From Patescibacteria group bacterium (GTDB lineage Bacteria > Patescibacteriota > Dojkabacteria > JAHIVN01): a DNA stretch of 43,090 nucleotides. A model generated the notes under the pieces. That model made no database searches. It was not told where the DNA came from and saw only the letters and a program-made list of their open reading frames with translations. Shown here in pieces: positions 3,594 through 18,849 of this stretch (position 1 is its first letter; the number at the start of each line of letters is the position of its first letter). The DNA lies in contig JAHIVN010000136.1 of assembly GCA_018816645.1 (NCBI GenBank), positions 1 to 43,090 of the forward strand, read 5' to 3'. The translations under genes were made by a program, and so were the position numbers.

Positions 3594-4532
3594 TTAATCT
3601 ATACTTGATCTGTAAAATGGACTATTTAAATTTCTGATCGCCCAAGTGAAATGCCCCTCGTTTGGATCATTTGTCTCATACATATTTGCTGAGATAAGGC
3701 TATATATAAGGACATACAGTTTTAATAGCCTAAATGAGGACTTGGTAATCCTGTTCTTGATAATATCACCGACATAGTCTTTTAAACTGAATATTTTTAT
3801 CTCATCATACATGTCTGAAAAGGTCCAGCCTAAGGCTATATCAAACAAAGGATCACCAACTGTTGTCAATATCCCAAAATCGAGAACAGCCTGAACTTTC
3901 AAGTCGTCATCAACCAGCAGATTGGCCGGAAAGTAGTCCCCGTGTATGAGTCTGTAACTGGACAAGCTAATCTCTCGAAGAGTTTGGATAATTCCCTCCA
4001 CTAATAATCCTGCATTGTCTACTTTCCCCCCAAAAATTCTTTCTGACTCTTTATATTTATTAAGTAGATTATAAATTAGTAGATTATTCCAATTTGAATA
4101 CTTTCTGACTTCGAAGAATTTACCTTTCAGGTCGAGCGGTTCTGCTTTATCTAACAGATCAGTTTTTATTTTCTGTATGTTAAATAACACCTCTACATAT
4201 GAGTTTAGAGTTTTTTTAAGTTCGGTCTCGGTCATGTTTTTCAGTACTGTAGTTGTCAAACAGGTTCCTTGTAGTTTTTTTTCAGTAACTACCAACTTGC
4301 TTCCTATTTTCCGAATACTTAATATTTCAGGAGTTGAAAATTCTACATTAGTTGTATCCAAAGAGTTGTAGAATTTCATGAGCCGCTGAAGGTTCTTTTT
4401 GCCGATATCGGTTCCATATACCTTGATGATGGTTTCTTTGGTATATTCAAAAACCAGACACTGCCACCCTTTTCCAACGAGTTTCAGATCGGGGCTGTTT
4501 ATCTCCTGTAAAAGTTTTTTATAGTCCTGCAT
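3594..4532 (-). CDS. APH-type (aminoglycoside/macrolide/choline kinase-like) phosphotransferase
   Basis: 312 aa with a kinase-like fold. The N-lobe has a nucleotide-loop stretch GKGWQCLVFEY and a β3 Lys in IIKVY (~37). The catalytic loop is HGDYFPAN (His197, Asp199, Asn204) and the metal-binding motif is DFG (218-220). These are the marks of the APH/choline-kinase/fructosamine-kinase clan, which phosphorylates hydroxyls or amines on small molecules. The substrate is not visible. It starts 27 nt after the ABC-F gene and is co-transcribed with it. ABC-F plus phosphotransferase is the arrangement of known macrolide-resistance pairs such as msr(E)-mph(E), so an antibiotic-protection role is a reasonable inference. 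A housekeeping kinase remains possible. Confidence 0.85.
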   Translation of the reverse strand: MQDYKKLLQEINSPDLKLVGKGWQCLVFEYTKETIIKVYGTDIGKKNLQRLMKFYNSLDTTNVEFSTPEILSIRKIGSKLVVTEKKLQGTCLTTTVLKNMTETELKKTLNSYVEVLFNIQKIKTDLLDKAEPLDLKGKFFEVRKYSNWNNLLIYNLLNKYKESERIFGGKVDNAGLLVEGIIQTLREISLSSYRLIHGDYFPANLLVDDDLKVQAVLDFGILTTVGDPLFDIALGWTFSDMYDEIKIFSLKDYVGDIIKNRITKSSFRLLKLYVLIYSLISANMYETNDPNEGHFTWAIRNLNSPFYRSSID

Positions 4533-4559: not shown

Positions 4560-6113
4560 CTACTTAAGCAATTGTTTATTATCAATTAAATAATACTCGT
4601 TTATCCCGATCTGTTCCAGGAAGTGAAAATCGTGCGATATCGCTGCAATTGTACCTTGGAATTCCTTCAGTGTTTCTGTTATAGCTTCAACAGTTTCTAT
4701 ATCAAGGTTGTTTGTCGGCTCGTCAAGTATCAGCATATCAATATCAGAGCTTGTTGCAATAGCAAAAGCCAGTCTTGCTGTTTCTCCGCCGCTAAGAATT
4801 TTAGCATTTTTTTGAATATCCAGGTTACCCGGGAAACACAGGTTTCCCAGAACCTTTCTAACATCTTCGTAACTAATATTAGCATTGTTATCCTGAACAT
4901 TCTTGATTATAGTTGCCTTTGGATTTATCAGGTCATATTTCTGATCAACGTACAAAGTTTTGTACTCGGAGCCGTAACTGACATTTTTCAGCAACGAGTC
5001 TTTTCTATTATAAGAGAACTGTTTAACTAACGTAGTTTTACCACTGCCGTTATCACCCAGAATTGCAAGTCTATCACCATGGTAAATATCGAAGTTAATT
5101 TTATCGATAAGTAATTTCCTGCTTGGGAGCAGAAGTGATCCGGTTTTGACACTTAAAACCAGTCCTGACTTCTGCCGAGTGTTTAACTTTAGGCAGATAT
5201 TTTTCCTTTGCTTTAGCTTCAGTGTATTTAGCATATCATTTGTTTTTTCTATAGACTTTTCCTTTTTAACCTTATCTGCTCCAAAACTAGTCTGCATATT
5301 CCGCCTCATAGAATTACGAGCGATTTTAGGTATGCTTCTATCGTTAGTTTTAGCCATCCGATCAAATTTTGCTTTTTCTTTTTGAAATCGTATGTTCCCT
5401 CTCTGAAAAGCGGTTTTAATCTTTTTTAATCTTTTTCTTTCGACCTCGAACTGGTCAATCTGAGATTGTATTTCATTATCCTTTTCGGTTTTGTAAAAGT
5501 CGTAATCTCCGCCATAAATGGTCAATTTGCACTTTTCGATTTCCCAAATTGTTTTTACTACTGAATTTAAAAAATCTATATTATGACTCACTACGACAAA
5601 AGCGATATCTGTTTTCTGCAGTACTGTTTTCAACTCATTCAACGAATGTAAGTCCAGATGATTAGTTGGTTCATCAAGCAGGATGACTTCTGGAGATTTT
5701 GCTAATGCAACGGCAAGATTGAGTTTTACAAGCTCTCCGCCGCTTAGTGTACTTAATAGCTGTGTTTCACTTAGTCTTGTTTTGAAAATGCTTTCGTATG
5801 CTATCAAGATTTGCCACCAATCCTCATGTATACCTTGAAGGTACAGATGCAGAGGTGTTTTCTTTCGGTAGAATTCTAAATCCAGTTGCGGAATGTACTC
5901 AATTGTGCAGTTTCGATTCACACTGCCCGAGTTTGACTTTATCAGTCCGGCAAGGCATTTAAGCAGTGAAGTTTTCCCACTTCCGTTTATGCCTACTAGA
6001 CCGATTCTGTCTCTATCGATGATAGATCCGGATAGGCTGTCAAGAATGTTCTTTCCGTCAAAAGCAAGCGATATCTTATTAAATTGTAGCAGCGTTTTGT
6101 TTTGGATACTCAT
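4560..6113 (-). CDS. ABC-F family ATPase (ribosome-associated, resistance/translation-factor type)
   Basis: 517 aa with two ABC ATPase domains and no membrane segment, the ABC-F layout. Domain 1: Walker A GINGSGKT (41-48), signature LSGGE (123-127), Walker B with DEPTNHLDL (147 on), His-switch SHN (176-178). Domain 2: GDNGSGKT (353-360), LSGGE (440-444), DEPTNNLD (464 on), SHD (493-495). The ~90-residue Lys/Arg-rich linker (~210-305) is the segment that enters the ribosomal E site in this family. ABC-F proteins either protect the ribosome from antibiotics or rescue stalled ribosomes; 517 aa and the basic linker fit both classes. It heads the operon with the phosphotransferase (27-nt gap). Promoter at 6288-6316; the long leader contains a short ORF and alternative hairpins, a layout seen in attenuated resistance genes. 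No Shine-Dalgarno before the ATG. Confidence 0.93.
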   Translation of the reverse strand: MSIQNKTLLQFNKISLAFDGKNILDSLSGSIIDRDRIGLVGINGSGKTSLLKCLAGLIKSNSGSVNRNCTIEYIPQLDLEFYRKKTPLHLYLQGIHEDWWQILIAYESIFKTRLSETQLLSTLSGGELVKLNLAVALAKSPEVILLDEPTNHLDLHSLNELKTVLQKTDIAFVVVSHNIDFLNSVVKTIWEIEKCKLTIYGGDYDFYKTEKDNEIQSQIDQFEVERKRLKKIKTAFQRGNIRFQKEKAKFDRMAKTNDRSIPKIARNSMRRNMQTSFGADKVKKEKSIEKTNDMLNTLKLKQRKNICLKLNTRQKSGLVLSVKTGSLLLPSRKLLIDKINFDIYHGDRLAILGDNGSGKTTLVKQFSYNRKDSLLKNVSYGSEYKTLYVDQKYDLINPKATIIKNVQDNNANISYEDVRKVLGNLCFPGNLDIQKNAKILSGGETARLAFAIATSSDIDMLILDEPTNNLDIETVEAITETLKEFQGTIAAISHDFHFLEQIGINEYYLIDNKQLLK

Positions 6114-6281
6114 GGTTTCTGATTCACAGATAATATATACGAAATCTGATTAGTCAGAAACTATTGGAGAGGGGAATTGGGTGGAAATTGCAAGACACGA
6201 AAATACCAAACTCTGTGTCAAAGCTTCTGACTAGATATTTGATATTTTGCCTGCCATCGGATTAAGAATATGATTTAATAC
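6114..6281 (-). promoter_or_regulatory. Structured 5' leader of the ABC-F operon with two mutually exclusive stems
   Basis: From the predicted start point (~6281) to the ATG is ~168 nt. Segment 1 (6222-6233) pairs with segment 2 (6151-6162): 12 bp with one G-U pair and a 59-nt loop. The 3' part of segment 1 contains the stop codon of the short ORF at 6231-6257. Segment 2 can instead pair through 8 bp (6154-6161) with segment 3 (6115-6122), which occupies positions -2 to -9 before the ABC-F start codon. The two pairings share segment 2 and exclude each other. This is the geometry of translational attenuation. Which state is ON cannot be settled by reading. Confidence 0.5.
6231..6257 (-). CDS. 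Putative 8-codon leader peptide (MAGKISNI) of the ABC-F gene
   Basis: An ATG at 6257 opens MAGKISNI and stops at a TAG at 6231-6233. It lies ~24 nt after the predicted transcription start and ~117 nt before the ABC-F gene. Its stop codon falls inside stem segment 1 of the leader, so a ribosome paused here would prevent the 1:2 stem. Leader peptides of this size are known for ABC-F and erm genes. No strong ribosome site precedes it, and a chance ORF this short cannot be excluded. Confidence 0.35.
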   Translation of the reverse strand: MAGKISNI

Positions 6282-6287
6282 ATATAA

Positions 6288-6316
6288 ATTATACCCCAGG
6301 TTAGGGGCTTTTGCAA
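6288..6316 (-). promoter_or_regulatory. Strong sigma70-type promoter of the ABC-F operon
   Basis: On the minus strand: -35 TTGCAA (6311-6316), a spacer of exactly 17 nt, -10 TATAAT (6288-6293, perfect consensus). The spacer contains a small CCCC/GGGG self-complementary stretch. Start predicted near 6281. Confidence 0.75.
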
Positions 6317-10169: not shown

Positions 10170-10985
10170 TCATGAGCTCACGGAAGAATAGCTTTTGAGT
10201 CCCAGTTTCCAGACGAGGTTGCTTCCTAGATAAAAAACAGTAGCGAGAATGACATAGTAGCTAGTTAGCGGCCAGTCTATGTTATTGAAGAAGATGACTG
10301 AAGTCGGTACTGTTGTGACTAGAGCAACTGGGATTATGAAACTTGCGATAAATCTTATAGCCCCTTGGTAAGCGGATGACGGGATCGACCCTGGATCATT
10401 TAATACAGTATGCAAAAATCCCCTTACCGACTCCATTCTTCCCGCCCAGAAAGCCAGCGATAATACTATGAAGAAGATTGAGTAGAATACTACCACTGAG
10501 CAAGCTGCAAGAATTAACAATTTCAAAACGAGGAGAAAAGTTATGACAATTTTCAGCTTGATGATAGATATGAAGAAAACAGCCAGTCCGAATAACGCAT
10601 TGGGTATACTGGCGATATCAAATTCATTGAACGAAGCAAGAAATTTTGAACCGATAGGTTTTGTGAGCAGTCCATCGATCTTGCCGTAGAAAATATTATC
10701 AGAAAGAGAGTTTAGGCTGATATCAAAAAGGAACCAGAAAATGTTCTGGAATATATGAAAAAATCCCATAAACCCTATGTATTGCCAGATACTGTATCCG
10801 GCGAAGGAGTCTGAGTAACTGTAAAGAATATAGATCCATACTATACTGGCTATCAGCCAGAGACTTATGGAGACTGTCGTGAGATAGAAGCTGGCCCGAT
10901 AGGTGAGTGCTTTCTGATAAGAAAGACTTAGGAGTCTAGCTAATATTTTCCCATATTTTAGAATGTTATGCACCATACGCTTCAT
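10170..10985 (-). CDS. ABC-2 type exporter permease (COG3694/PF06182-like), copy 1
   Basis: 271 aa with about six membrane helices. The family hallmark sits between helices 2 and 3: DNIFYGKIDGLLTKPIGSKF, matching the 'G.ld..l.kPi' loop, and the C-terminus ends WKLGLKSYSS. This is one half of the two-permease DUF990-type exporters that normally work with a dedicated ABC ATPase. The substrate is unknown. It overlaps the partner gene at 10966 by 20 nt, so the two are translationally coupled. The pair at 17259/18055 is paralogous and has the same 20-nt overlap. No matching ATPase gene lies in the window. Confidence 0.88.
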   Translation of the reverse strand: MKRMVHNILKYGKILARLLSLSYQKALTYRASFYLTTVSISLWLIASIVWIYILYSYSDSFAGYSIWQYIGFMGFFHIFQNIFWFLFDISLNSLSDNIFYGKIDGLLTKPIGSKFLASFNEFDIASIPNALFGLAVFFISIIKLKIVITFLLVLKLLILAACSVVVFYSIFFIVLSLAFWAGRMESVRGFLHTVLNDPGSIPSSAYQGAIRFIASFIIPVALVTTVPTSVIFFNNIDWPLTSYYVILATVFYLGSNLVWKLGLKSYSSVSS

Positions 10986-11754
10986 ATTTTTTGATACCGA
11001 ATTTATAAAGTAATTTGAAAATAATGATTATCAATATCACCCACAAGGCCTGCATTCCGAACATAAAGGGGAGATTGATTTCGTCCGGGGTAAATATGAT
11101 ATCTGCTGAAAAGGCAAAGGTGTATCTATAGAAAAGTAAGTTGTTGATCCCTGCCATCCAGGCTGGCATGAGAACTACTGGGAAAACCTGTCCTGAGAGA
11201 AGCATAAATAGTATTCTATTTAGTCTGCTTATCGGATCAACATTCTGGATGAAAAATGCACACATTCCTATGATCATATCCCAGAGAGAGAAGATGGTTG
11301 CTCCCAGAATCATAGAGACAAGTAAGAACAAAAGCTGTTCAATCGAAGTGATCGGTATTTTTAAATTGAAAACTATAAGAAGGACTATAAAAATAGGTGC
11401 GATAAGGATGAGACTTCCGAGCTTCCATCCTTGCTCGATGAAGATGTATCTCAAGATGGGATGGATAGGTTTGACTATGAAAGCGCTGATCCCGCCATCT
11501 TTGATGGAAGAGCCTAGATACTTGCTCACTGTCCCGCCTATGATGTACCAAAGGATCGCCATAACAAGAAAGTAGGTAAGAAGATCGGTCTGCTGGAAGC
11601 CGTTTATTTCCTTCTTGTCTCCATATACTGCTACCCAAGTCACATAGTTTACAAACGCCGGGAGCAAGCCGCAGAAGAACCAAAACAGATTGTCAAATCT
11701 GTGTTCGTATTGCCGCATGAGATTTACTTTGAAAACTGCCCAGTATTTTTTCAT
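10966..11754 (-). CDS. ABC-2 type exporter permease (COG4587-like), copy 1
   Basis: 262 aa with six predicted membrane helices and a charged cytoplasmic loop, SSIKDGGISAFIVKPIHPILRY, that carries the family's 'G..s..l.kP..p' motif. The C-terminus KKYEAYGA resembles the QKYESFGN of the paralogue at 18055. Together with the downstream gene it would form the heterodimeric membrane channel of an exporter. First gene of the pair. A TATAAT in an AT-rich stretch just upstream (~11773) may be its -10 box, but I could not find a good -35. Confidence 0.88.
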   Translation of the reverse strand: MKKYWAVFKVNLMRQYEHRFDNLFWFFCGLLPAFVNYVTWVAVYGDKKEINGFQQTDLLTYFLVMAILWYIIGGTVSKYLGSSIKDGGISAFIVKPIHPILRYIFIEQGWKLGSLILIAPIFIVLLIVFNLKIPITSIEQLLFLLVSMILGATIFSLWDMIIGMCAFFIQNVDPISRLNRILFMLLSGQVFPVVLMPAWMAGINNLLFYRYTFAFSADIIFTPDEINLPFMFGMQALWVILIIIIFKLLYKFGIKKYEAYGA

Positions 11755-17258: not shown

Positions 17259-18074
17259 TTATCCGCCTCCACTGGTATATGACCTAAGTCCGCTCTTCCA
17301 TATCACTCTGCCGATGAATAGCCAAGCCACGGCAATAAGTGTAAATATAAGCAGTGTATTCTGCGGTATTCTTCCAAGTAATAGCCCGACAGGAACTGCT
17401 CCAAACAAGACAAAGGGAACGGCATATACAAAAAGAATTTTCCAAGCTCCATGAAATGCTGACATGGGTATTTTTGCAATCTCTGACAGAGATATAAATA
17501 CCCAATATCCGTGGCTGATGTTTCCAGCCCAGAAGCTTATCGAAAAAACGGAAAGTAGTATGGAATAGTAAATAACTGACAGCAAGACGATGACATACAG
17601 CATTTCCGGAACTATTGAAGCATCTAAGATAAAATCTGTGTTTGACAGGCCATAGTACATGAAGATTATGCCAATAACACATCTTGCCAGGTAAAACACA
17701 TGAAAATTCTCAAGTGATATAAGAAATAGCGGACTGATTGGTTTTGCGAGATACTGGTCAAGCTCTCCGTTTGGCACTTTGCTTGCTATGTTTCGTACGT
17801 TATCAAGAAGGACACTTTTGAGAAGTGAGATCGTAAATGTAAATGCTCCAAAGATAGCTATTACTTCAAATCTTCCCCAGCCTGCTATACTGTCAAACTT
17901 TGAGAAAATTATCTCGATAAATACCCAGTAAGATAGTATCTCGATAATGCTTCCGGATATCTGAGAAAGAAAATCGAGCCTGTAAGTCATTTCTGTACTT
18001 ATTGAAGCCTTCATCAGTACGAAGTAGACTCTTAGGTGCTTAACGATTTTCCTGCTAATTTCCGAAACTTTCAT
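17259..18074 (-). CDS. ABC-2 type exporter permease (COG3694/PF06182-like), copy 2
   Basis: 271 aa, six helices, the same length as copy 1 at 10170. The hallmark loop reads ASKVPNGELDQYLAKPISPLF, the 'G.lD..L.kPis..F' motif. The C-terminus WKSGLRSYTSGGG matches WKLGLKSYSS of copy 1, so the genes are paralogues. It overlaps its partner by 20 nt, exactly as in the first pair. The first ~20 residues (MKVSEISRKIVKHLRVYFVL) form an amphipathic lead-in before helix 1. Exported substrate unknown; no ATPase nearby. Confidence 0.88.
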   Translation of the reverse strand: MKVSEISRKIVKHLRVYFVLMKASISTEMTYRLDFLSQISGSIIEILSYWVFIEIIFSKFDSIAGWGRFEVIAIFGAFTFTISLLKSVLLDNVRNIASKVPNGELDQYLAKPISPLFLISLENFHVFYLARCVIGIIFMYYGLSNTDFILDASIVPEMLYVIVLLSVIYYSILLSVFSISFWAGNISHGYWVFISLSEIAKIPMSAFHGAWKILFVYAVPFVLFGAVPVGLLLGRIPQNTLLIFTLIAVAWLFIGRVIWKSGLRSYTSGGG

Positions 18075-18849
18075 ATTTCTGTAAACCCTTTTTATATAAG
18101 ATTCTACTCAAAATAATTAGTAATATCAGCCAAAGTACTTGTAGAAAATAGCCCAGGTATATTTGACTGTTTGAGATCAGGCTTTGAAATATCTCGATAG
18201 GAAAAGAGAATGTGTATCTGAAAGGAAGCAAGTATGCGGCTTTTTGGATCCCTAAAGGCATAAGCAATAAAGGGGCAATTGCTCCTCCAAAAATATAACT
18301 TGTCGTATTGTAAACTGTGTAAACTCCATCTACTTTTTGAAACCAATGAGTGAGATTTCCAATGATGAATTGAAGCAAGGCGAATATCAAAGTACTTAGA
18401 ATGATCGAAGGTAACGAGATGATCAAATGGATAAGCGAGAACTCGATGCTTAAGTTGCCTGAAAAAACTAAAAAGAATAAGATCAGAATTGGTATACCCG
18501 AAATAAGTCCAAAGGTTTTCCAGCCTTGTTCAAGAAGTATATCTTTAGCGTAGGGGAAGATCGGTTTCAGCAATGTGTTTGAAAGCTCTCCGCGTCTGAT
18601 TGAATTTGAGATCAAGTGCCAAAAAGTGCCTCCTATGATGTACCAGGTGATGAAAAGGTAAAAATAGTATGTTATGACTTGAGATATAGTCATCGAGCCG
18701 ATAGAGTCATGGCCTTTTGAAACGATCAGCCATGTAAAGGCCATGACAAAGCTTTCTGAGGCTCCTACCAATATCCAGATAAATGTTTTACCAGCATCAG
18801 AAAACATGTCCTGGACTGAGATTTTGTAAAGATGAATGTACTTATGCAT
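18055..18849 (-). CDS. ABC-2 type exporter permease (COG4587-like), copy 2
   Basis: 264 aa, six membrane helices. The cytoplasmic motif SNSIRRGELSNTLLKPIFPY parallels the GGISAFIVKPIHP loop of the paralogue at 10966. FITWYIIGGTFWHLIS corresponds to the paralogue's LWYIIGGTVSKYLG, and both C-termini end in KYE-aromatic-Gly. First gene of the pair; a good promoter lies 26-55 nt upstream (18875-18904). The two pairs sit 7 kb apart on the same strand and probably arose by duplication of the whole two-gene unit. Confidence 0.88.
   Translation of the reverse strand: MHKYIHLYKISVQDMFSDAGKTFIWILVGASESFVMAFTWLIVSKGHDSIGSMTISQVITYYFYLFITWYIIGGTFWHLISNSIRRGELSNTLLKPIFPYAKDILLEQGWKTFGLISGIPILILFFLVFSGNLSIEFSLIHLIISLPSIILSTLIFALLQFIIGNLTHWFQKVDGVYTVYNTTSYIFGGAIAPLLLMPLGIQKAAYLLPFRYTFSFPIEIFQSLISNSQIYLGYFLQVLWLILLIILSRILYKKGLQKYESFGN

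Follow-up and report, generated by a model that had tools for sequence, protein, structure and literature searches.

The leader in front of an ABC-F ATPase gene on contig JAHIVN010000136.1 of a Patescibacteria group bacterium (GCA_018816645.1) is probably a ribosome-mediated attenuator of translation, which would place a putative ABC-F ribosome-protection factor under inducible control; it would be of the same kind as the leaders of VmlR, CplR and LsaA. We analyzed the contig as one stretch of 43,090 nt, here called the window. The proposal was built from sequence, conservation and thermodynamics, and from these we infer the transcript, the translation of the upstream ORF (uORF), the inducer and the protective function of the ABC-F protein. 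An attenuator with a stall-sensing uORF had been suggested in an earlier note on this DNA, and that suggestion gains support from a sister species (G001, another species of the same genus), where the ortholog keeps both the ORF and the pairings. The features of the locus are the following:

6288..6316, minus strand: putative sigma-70-type promoter (-35 box TTGCAA at 6316-6311, 17-nt spacer, -10 box TATAAT at 6293-6288)
6114..6281, minus strand: leader RNA of about 168 nt, with the start of the transcript expected near 6281
6231..6257, minus strand: 8-codon uORF, MAGKISNI*, ATGGCAGGCAAAATATCAAATATCTAG, 27/27 nt the same in the sister species
6226..6259, minus strand: arm A of the default hairpin (MFE structure), formed by the uORF and the first nucleotides of segment 1, with the inner stem GUCAGA at 6231-6226
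6191..6222, minus strand: arm B of the default hairpin, with the inner stem UUUGAC at 6222-6217
6222..6233, minus strand: segment 1, UAGUCAGAAGCU, overlapping the uORF stop
6151..6162, minus strand: segment 2, AGUUUCUGACUA, common to the exclusive helices 1:2 and 2:3
6115..6122, minus strand: segment 3, UCAGAAAC, immediately 5' of the ABC-F start
4560..6113, minus strand: ABC-F ATPase gene, 517 aa, resistance-type (ARE-like) by sequence and fold

The promoter, described earlier as near-consensus, is present as TTGCAA-17-TATAAT and agrees with the consensus at 10 of 12 positions, but such sites are common by chance, with 16 found and 9.7 expected in the 3-kb region scanned. At the equivalent place, G001 has TTGAAA-18-TATAAT. 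In the window, the inverted repeat GCCCCTAACCTGGGGT at 6308-6293 (minus strand) shares positions with the -10 box of the ABC-F promoter; it may be an operator, or else a terminator from upstream may end there. Besides the start of the ABC-F gene itself, the leader contains a single ATG, that of the uORF, and the short ORF lies where it had been placed, with its stop inside segment 1. A repeat search of positions 6114-6290 returned only helices 1:2 and 2:3 as inverted repeats of at least 8 nt. The 12-bp pairing claimed for 1:2 (6222-6233/6151-6162) is there, with 11 Watson-Crick pairs and one G-U among its 12 positions, and the 8-bp pairing claimed for 2:3 (6154-6161/6115-6122) is 100% matched and ends directly before the ABC-F start. 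An intrinsic terminator would show as a stem with a T run behind it; none was found on the minus strand from 6281 to 6114, and control is therefore most likely exerted at translation. Shine-Dalgarno (SD) sequences are absent before the uORF and before the ABC-F start. Across the whole window, an SD-like motif lies upstream of only 3 of the 33 ORFs of at least 150 aa, and starts are preceded by A/T-rich sequence. Since the ABC-F start has no SD and SDs are rare in the window, structural hiding of the start region is a plausible lever.

The A:B hairpin (6259-6191), which contains the uORF, is strong and was overlooked in the earlier note. By folding energy, the free leader of either species has 2:3 with P=0.99 and 1:2 with P=0.00; for A:B, P is 0.99 (window) or 0.93 (G001). 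The free RNA lacks 1:2 because A:B locks segment 1 in the inner stem GUCAGA/UUUGAC. This overturns the assumption that 1:2 is the default state. It also removes a puzzle of polarity, in which a stall on the short ORF seemed to favor the stem that hides the start: the puzzle arose from the missing A:B hairpin and disappears once A:B locks segment 1. Both states were computed in the two species, and they exclude each other as had been claimed, with 1:2 on one side and A:B plus 2:3 on the other. The leader is more stable than expected from shuffled sequences, with a fold z of -2.45 in the window (1/200 shuffles equally stable) and of -3.64 in G001 (0/200). In folds of the growing transcript, A:B is formed before segment 2 exists, and 1:2 is able to compete at equilibrium at intermediate lengths, before segment 3. 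For the full-length leader, the predicted default is A:B together with 2:3, with the ABC-F start hidden.

Ribosome stalls were simulated by blocking the nucleotides under the ribosome and refolding the RNA, varying the P-site codon. With the P site at codons 1-3, A:B is abolished and P(1:2) rises to 0.83-0.95 in both species. Codon 4 gives a mixed outcome, and at codons 5-9 segment 1 is covered and P(2:3) is 0.94-0.99, again in both species. The outcome at 37 C is robust for footprint edges from +14 to +18, the limit shifting by about one codon (codon 3 or 4), and an edge of +12 is too short for full A:B disruption at codon 1. At 20 C, the switch in G001 is less complete: edge +16 gives P(1:2) of 0.53-0.66, and with edge +18 codon 3 reaches 0.08. 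Opening the start region becomes 4-7 kcal/mol cheaper under an early stall: in the window it costs 8.9 kcal/mol for the free RNA and 4.7-5.2 kcal/mol after the stall, in G001 11.7 and 4.9-5.5 kcal/mol. The AUG of the ABC-F gene is still partly paired in the ON model of both species; in that of G001 it is unpaired with a probability of only 0.03-0.12, being mostly paired with the 5' end of the leader. We also shuffled the leaders with the uORF kept, in two sets of 300. The contrast between the free and the early-stalled RNA was matched in 1/300 and 2/300 shuffles, that between late and early stalls likewise in 1/300 and 2/300, and both contrasts jointly in 0/300 and 2/300. In these models, a ribosome stalled at codons 1-3 switches the structure in the inducing direction. 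The stall-driven switch at the ABC-F start codon that had been envisaged thus stands for codons 1-3, but a late or stop-codon stall is predicted to keep the gene off.

The mechanism that we propose has the following steps. With no stalled ribosome, A:B would hold segment 1 and 2:3 would hide the SD-less ABC-F start. A drug would arrest the ribosome on arm A, at the start codon or within the first three or four codons; A:B being blocked, segment 1, just ahead of the ribosome, would pair with segment 2, and the segment 3 so freed would let the ABC-F start open. Further along, from codon 5 to the stop codon, a stalled ribosome would cover segment 1 and the gene would stay off. The uORF would in this way be a position-gated sensor of initiation-phase arrest, with its first three or four codons serving as the ribosome stop site and the rest as the arm to melt. 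The narrower claim of a purely translational, position-gated attenuator in CPR (on at codons 1-3, off at codons 5-9, with structure-only control of an SD-less start) is more tentative, and we give it slightly less than an even chance. If position gating is true, the cell would tell initiation-phase arrest from later arrest.

Attenuators of the ermC type are four-segment switches that act on translation only, and the leader described here has the same four-segment layout, most likely acting on translation alone. The erm leaders depend on a peptide-specific macrolide stall at a late codon, whereas late stalls are predicted to leave this gene off. The analogy with known leaders drawn in the earlier note consequently fits VmlR, CplR and LsaA, with their initiation stall, and fits the late-codon stalling of erm more poorly. 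An erm/MsrDL-like reading, in which the nascent peptide itself brings about the signaling stall, on the last codons of MAGKISNI or on the stop codon, would agree with the identity of the full peptide in both species, and MsrDL itself offers a precedent for stalling at the stop codon (PMC10314930). We nevertheless consider it unlikely, since a ribosome at codons 5-9 leaves 2:3 in place in both species. In addition, the sequence of codons 4-8 doubles as arm A, and its conservation is explained by this need, with no peptide effect required.

Pleuromutilins, lincosamides and streptogramin A stall ribosomes at or just after initiation (PMC9226507, PMC10201436). Very short uORFs precede the VmlR-type factors that resist these drugs, encoding MIN for VmlR, MRI for CplR, MK[L/Q] for VmlR2 and MAGN for LsaA; ribosomes on these uORFs are thought to be stalled just after initiation, and a start-hiding hairpin has been shown for vmlR and cplR (PMC9226507, PMC10201436). 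The leader of Bacillus subtilis vmlR (MIN; ARE2) resembles the one described here in having a very short uORF in a 5' hairpin that is opened by early drug arrest, and an alternative pairing that undoes the hairpin over the ABC-F start (PMC9226507). The ABC-F encoded here is most like VmlR2. On the other hand, vmlR also uses NusG pausing, and it has an intrinsic terminator and an SD, neither of which was found here. Clostridioides difficile cplR (MRI; ARE1) likewise combines a uORF hairpin with a hairpin over the start, and there translational attenuation is by itself sufficient for repression (PMC10201436); it differs by its terminator, its SD and its 3-codon uORF. The uORF of Enterococcus lsaA (MAGN) starts with M-A-G, as here, but it has 4 codons instead of 8, and the identity between the ABC-F proteins is low (21%, fold alignment), the likeness being drawn from the uORF peptide. 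The MAG match to LsaA could be due to chance. From these comparisons, we infer that the inducer is most likely a drug of the pleuromutilin, lincosamide or streptogramin A type, or another PTC drug.

The ABC-F protein has NCBIfam NF000355 ('ribosomal protection-like ABC-F') as its top model, with 371.9 bits (372.6 bits for the other ortholog) against a curated cut-off of 380 bits, so that both proteins fall short of it (that of the window by 8 bits). NF000355 leads the next model, Vga, by about 80 bits. Among solved proteins, the sequence is closest to those of VmlR2, VgaA-LC, VgaL and MsrE, and the best fold matches of the AlphaFold model (pLDDT 83) are VmlR2, PoxtA, VgaL and VgaA-LC, followed by the housekeeping Uup and EttA. 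A long two-helix linker joins the two ABC domains (helices 204-255 and 263-299, mean pLDDT 83), which is weak evidence for an ARE since housekeeping ABC-Fs carry such a linker too. The best reading of sequence and model is an ARE-like protein, outside NF000355 membership, with a predicted role in resistance. An APH-type kinase gene (3594-4532, minus strand) lies 27 nt behind the ABC-F gene and is possibly co-transcribed with it. G001 has a glycosidase-like and an MFS gene at the APH position, and the ABC-F/APH pairing is not conserved. Elsewhere in the window (10170-11754 and 17259-18849, minus strand), multi-pass membrane proteins sit side by side in two pairs that resemble each other, and these look like permease pairs of the ABC-2 type that arose by duplication.

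The leader could also be a general sensor of translation stress or starvation, responding with no antibiotic to slow initiation or to uncharged Ala, Gly or Lys tRNA. The switch reads ribosome position only, so any hold at codons 1-3 would act, and Escherichia coli toiL responds to several kinds of stress (PMC12121999). The toiL-topAI leader shares with this one a uORF RNA that pairs with the downstream start region and induction by start-codon arrest, but in toiL stalls at many positions induce, and the target is a toxin-antitoxin operon rather than an ABC-F gene (PMC12121999). The controlled gene is closer to drug-protection ABC-Fs than to housekeeping ones, and no amino acid is encoded several times in a row in the uORF, which makes amino-acid-starvation attenuation less likely. 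We judge this sensor about as improbable as the nascent-peptide stall, and drug-induced arrest in the initiation phase remains the reading we prefer.

The comparison with G001 gives evidence of selection. The two ABC-F orthologs are 59-60% identical and the leader layout is alike; SDR and glyoxalase-like genes lie downstream in both, although the intervening genes differ, which indicates that this is the same locus. The uORF is identical in 27/27 nt while the remaining leader is identical in 95/147 (65%; Fisher p=2.6e-5). In the ABC-F gene, third codon positions are 41% identical, and 41/105 four-fold sites of shared residues are identical (39%). The longest identical run starts at the uORF and spans 33 nt, compared with 14 nt in the 1.5-kb gene. 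Helix 1:2 has two one-sided changes from the window to G001 (U-A to U-G and G-U to A-U), both keeping the pairs, and segment 2 retains 11/12 nt, its change from U-A to U-G keeping the pair. Segment 3 (UCAGAAAC in the window) is swapped for AACUAGAU in G001, where 3 of the 9 aligned nucleotides before the ATG are shared, and the G001 segment still forms 8 bp with segment 2, on its 5' side or in the flank just 5' of it. This is suggestive of a helix 2:3 conserved in position but not in sequence, the covariation being anecdotal with n=2 leaders. By its sequence, then, this second, syntenic copy of the leader appears to be under selection. The refutation test by orthologous leaders that the earlier note set is thereby passed: the ortholog retains the short ORF and the pairings, and the changes preserve pairing (n=2).

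Base pairing could be the only reason for this conservation, if the leader served RNA stability or basal repression and the ORF were untranslated. The ORF is mostly helical from codon 4 on, and its complete identity leaves no way to separate a constraint on coding from one on structure. However, arm B drifts between the species whereas all 27 nt of the uORF side are unchanged, codons 1-3 (ATGGCAGGC) are conserved despite their weak pairing, and the early-stall switch is rare among shuffles; we find this explanation quite improbable, somewhat more so than the two preceding ones. Chance pairing with regulation absent is highly improbable. Some inverted repeats and weak promoter matches are frequent in such regions, but the ortholog already contradicts this reading, with conservation across 59% identity; the fold z-scores (-2.5 and -3.6) and the outcome for shuffled leaders also speak against it.

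In the class, the uORF is present in 2/86 genomes, that of the window and G001. No further real leaders came from scanning the class with a covariance model or the whole phylum with a pattern. The ABC-F homologs of 37-42% identity in G038 and G128 have no leader of this kind. That of G038 (42%) has its promoter directly before the start, with TATAAT ending about 8 nt before the GTG (L003, ABC-F start 3009, minus strand), and its mRNA seems nearly leaderless; before that of G128, no related uORF was seen. For the homolog in G024, the contig ends before the leader region. No exact match was found in viral contigs, and a search of genome contigs returned only distant ABC-Fs. Three candidates were discarded. 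A 'MAG' mini-ORF before the ABC-F gene of G040 (L014) was dropped because its region reads as RNase P RNA by conserved motifs; this apparent RNase P RNA (about 780-1085) lies immediately upstream of the ABC-F gene. A covariance-model match in the same genome (E=0.008) falls within an MFS transporter gene, and a MAGKISKT match in G314 is antisense within a cysteine-desulfurase-like gene.

The loss of uL30 is a hallmark of CPR genomes. This protein is absent in 39/39 relatives, including the genome of the window, and was found in 13/14 controls, which agrees with the earlier description of the genome as CPR-like. In the genome itself (91%-complete assembly), a 16S or 23S rRNA match was not found. 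The earlier note knew of no leader of this kind in CPR, and we likewise found no published case in the literature searched; the published work found on CPR resistance genes does not treat leader regulation, and no mention of the peptide MAGKISNI was found in the same literature. Drug-inducible ABC-F attenuators are well worked out in Firmicutes, and the principle is thus known from Gram-positives; what is new is a conserved case in a CPR lineage, with neither terminator nor SD. The prediction of position gating is sharp and testable in a standard reporter host, with no need for CPR culture. If the proposal is true, it would give CPR their first described leader peptide with a response to antibiotics, as far as the literature searched shows. 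It would mean that CPR use leader-peptide regulation despite their reduced genomes and scant use of Shine-Dalgarno sequences, and that compounds targeting the ribosome are encountered often enough for inducible protection to pay off in such reduced, probably host-dependent cells.
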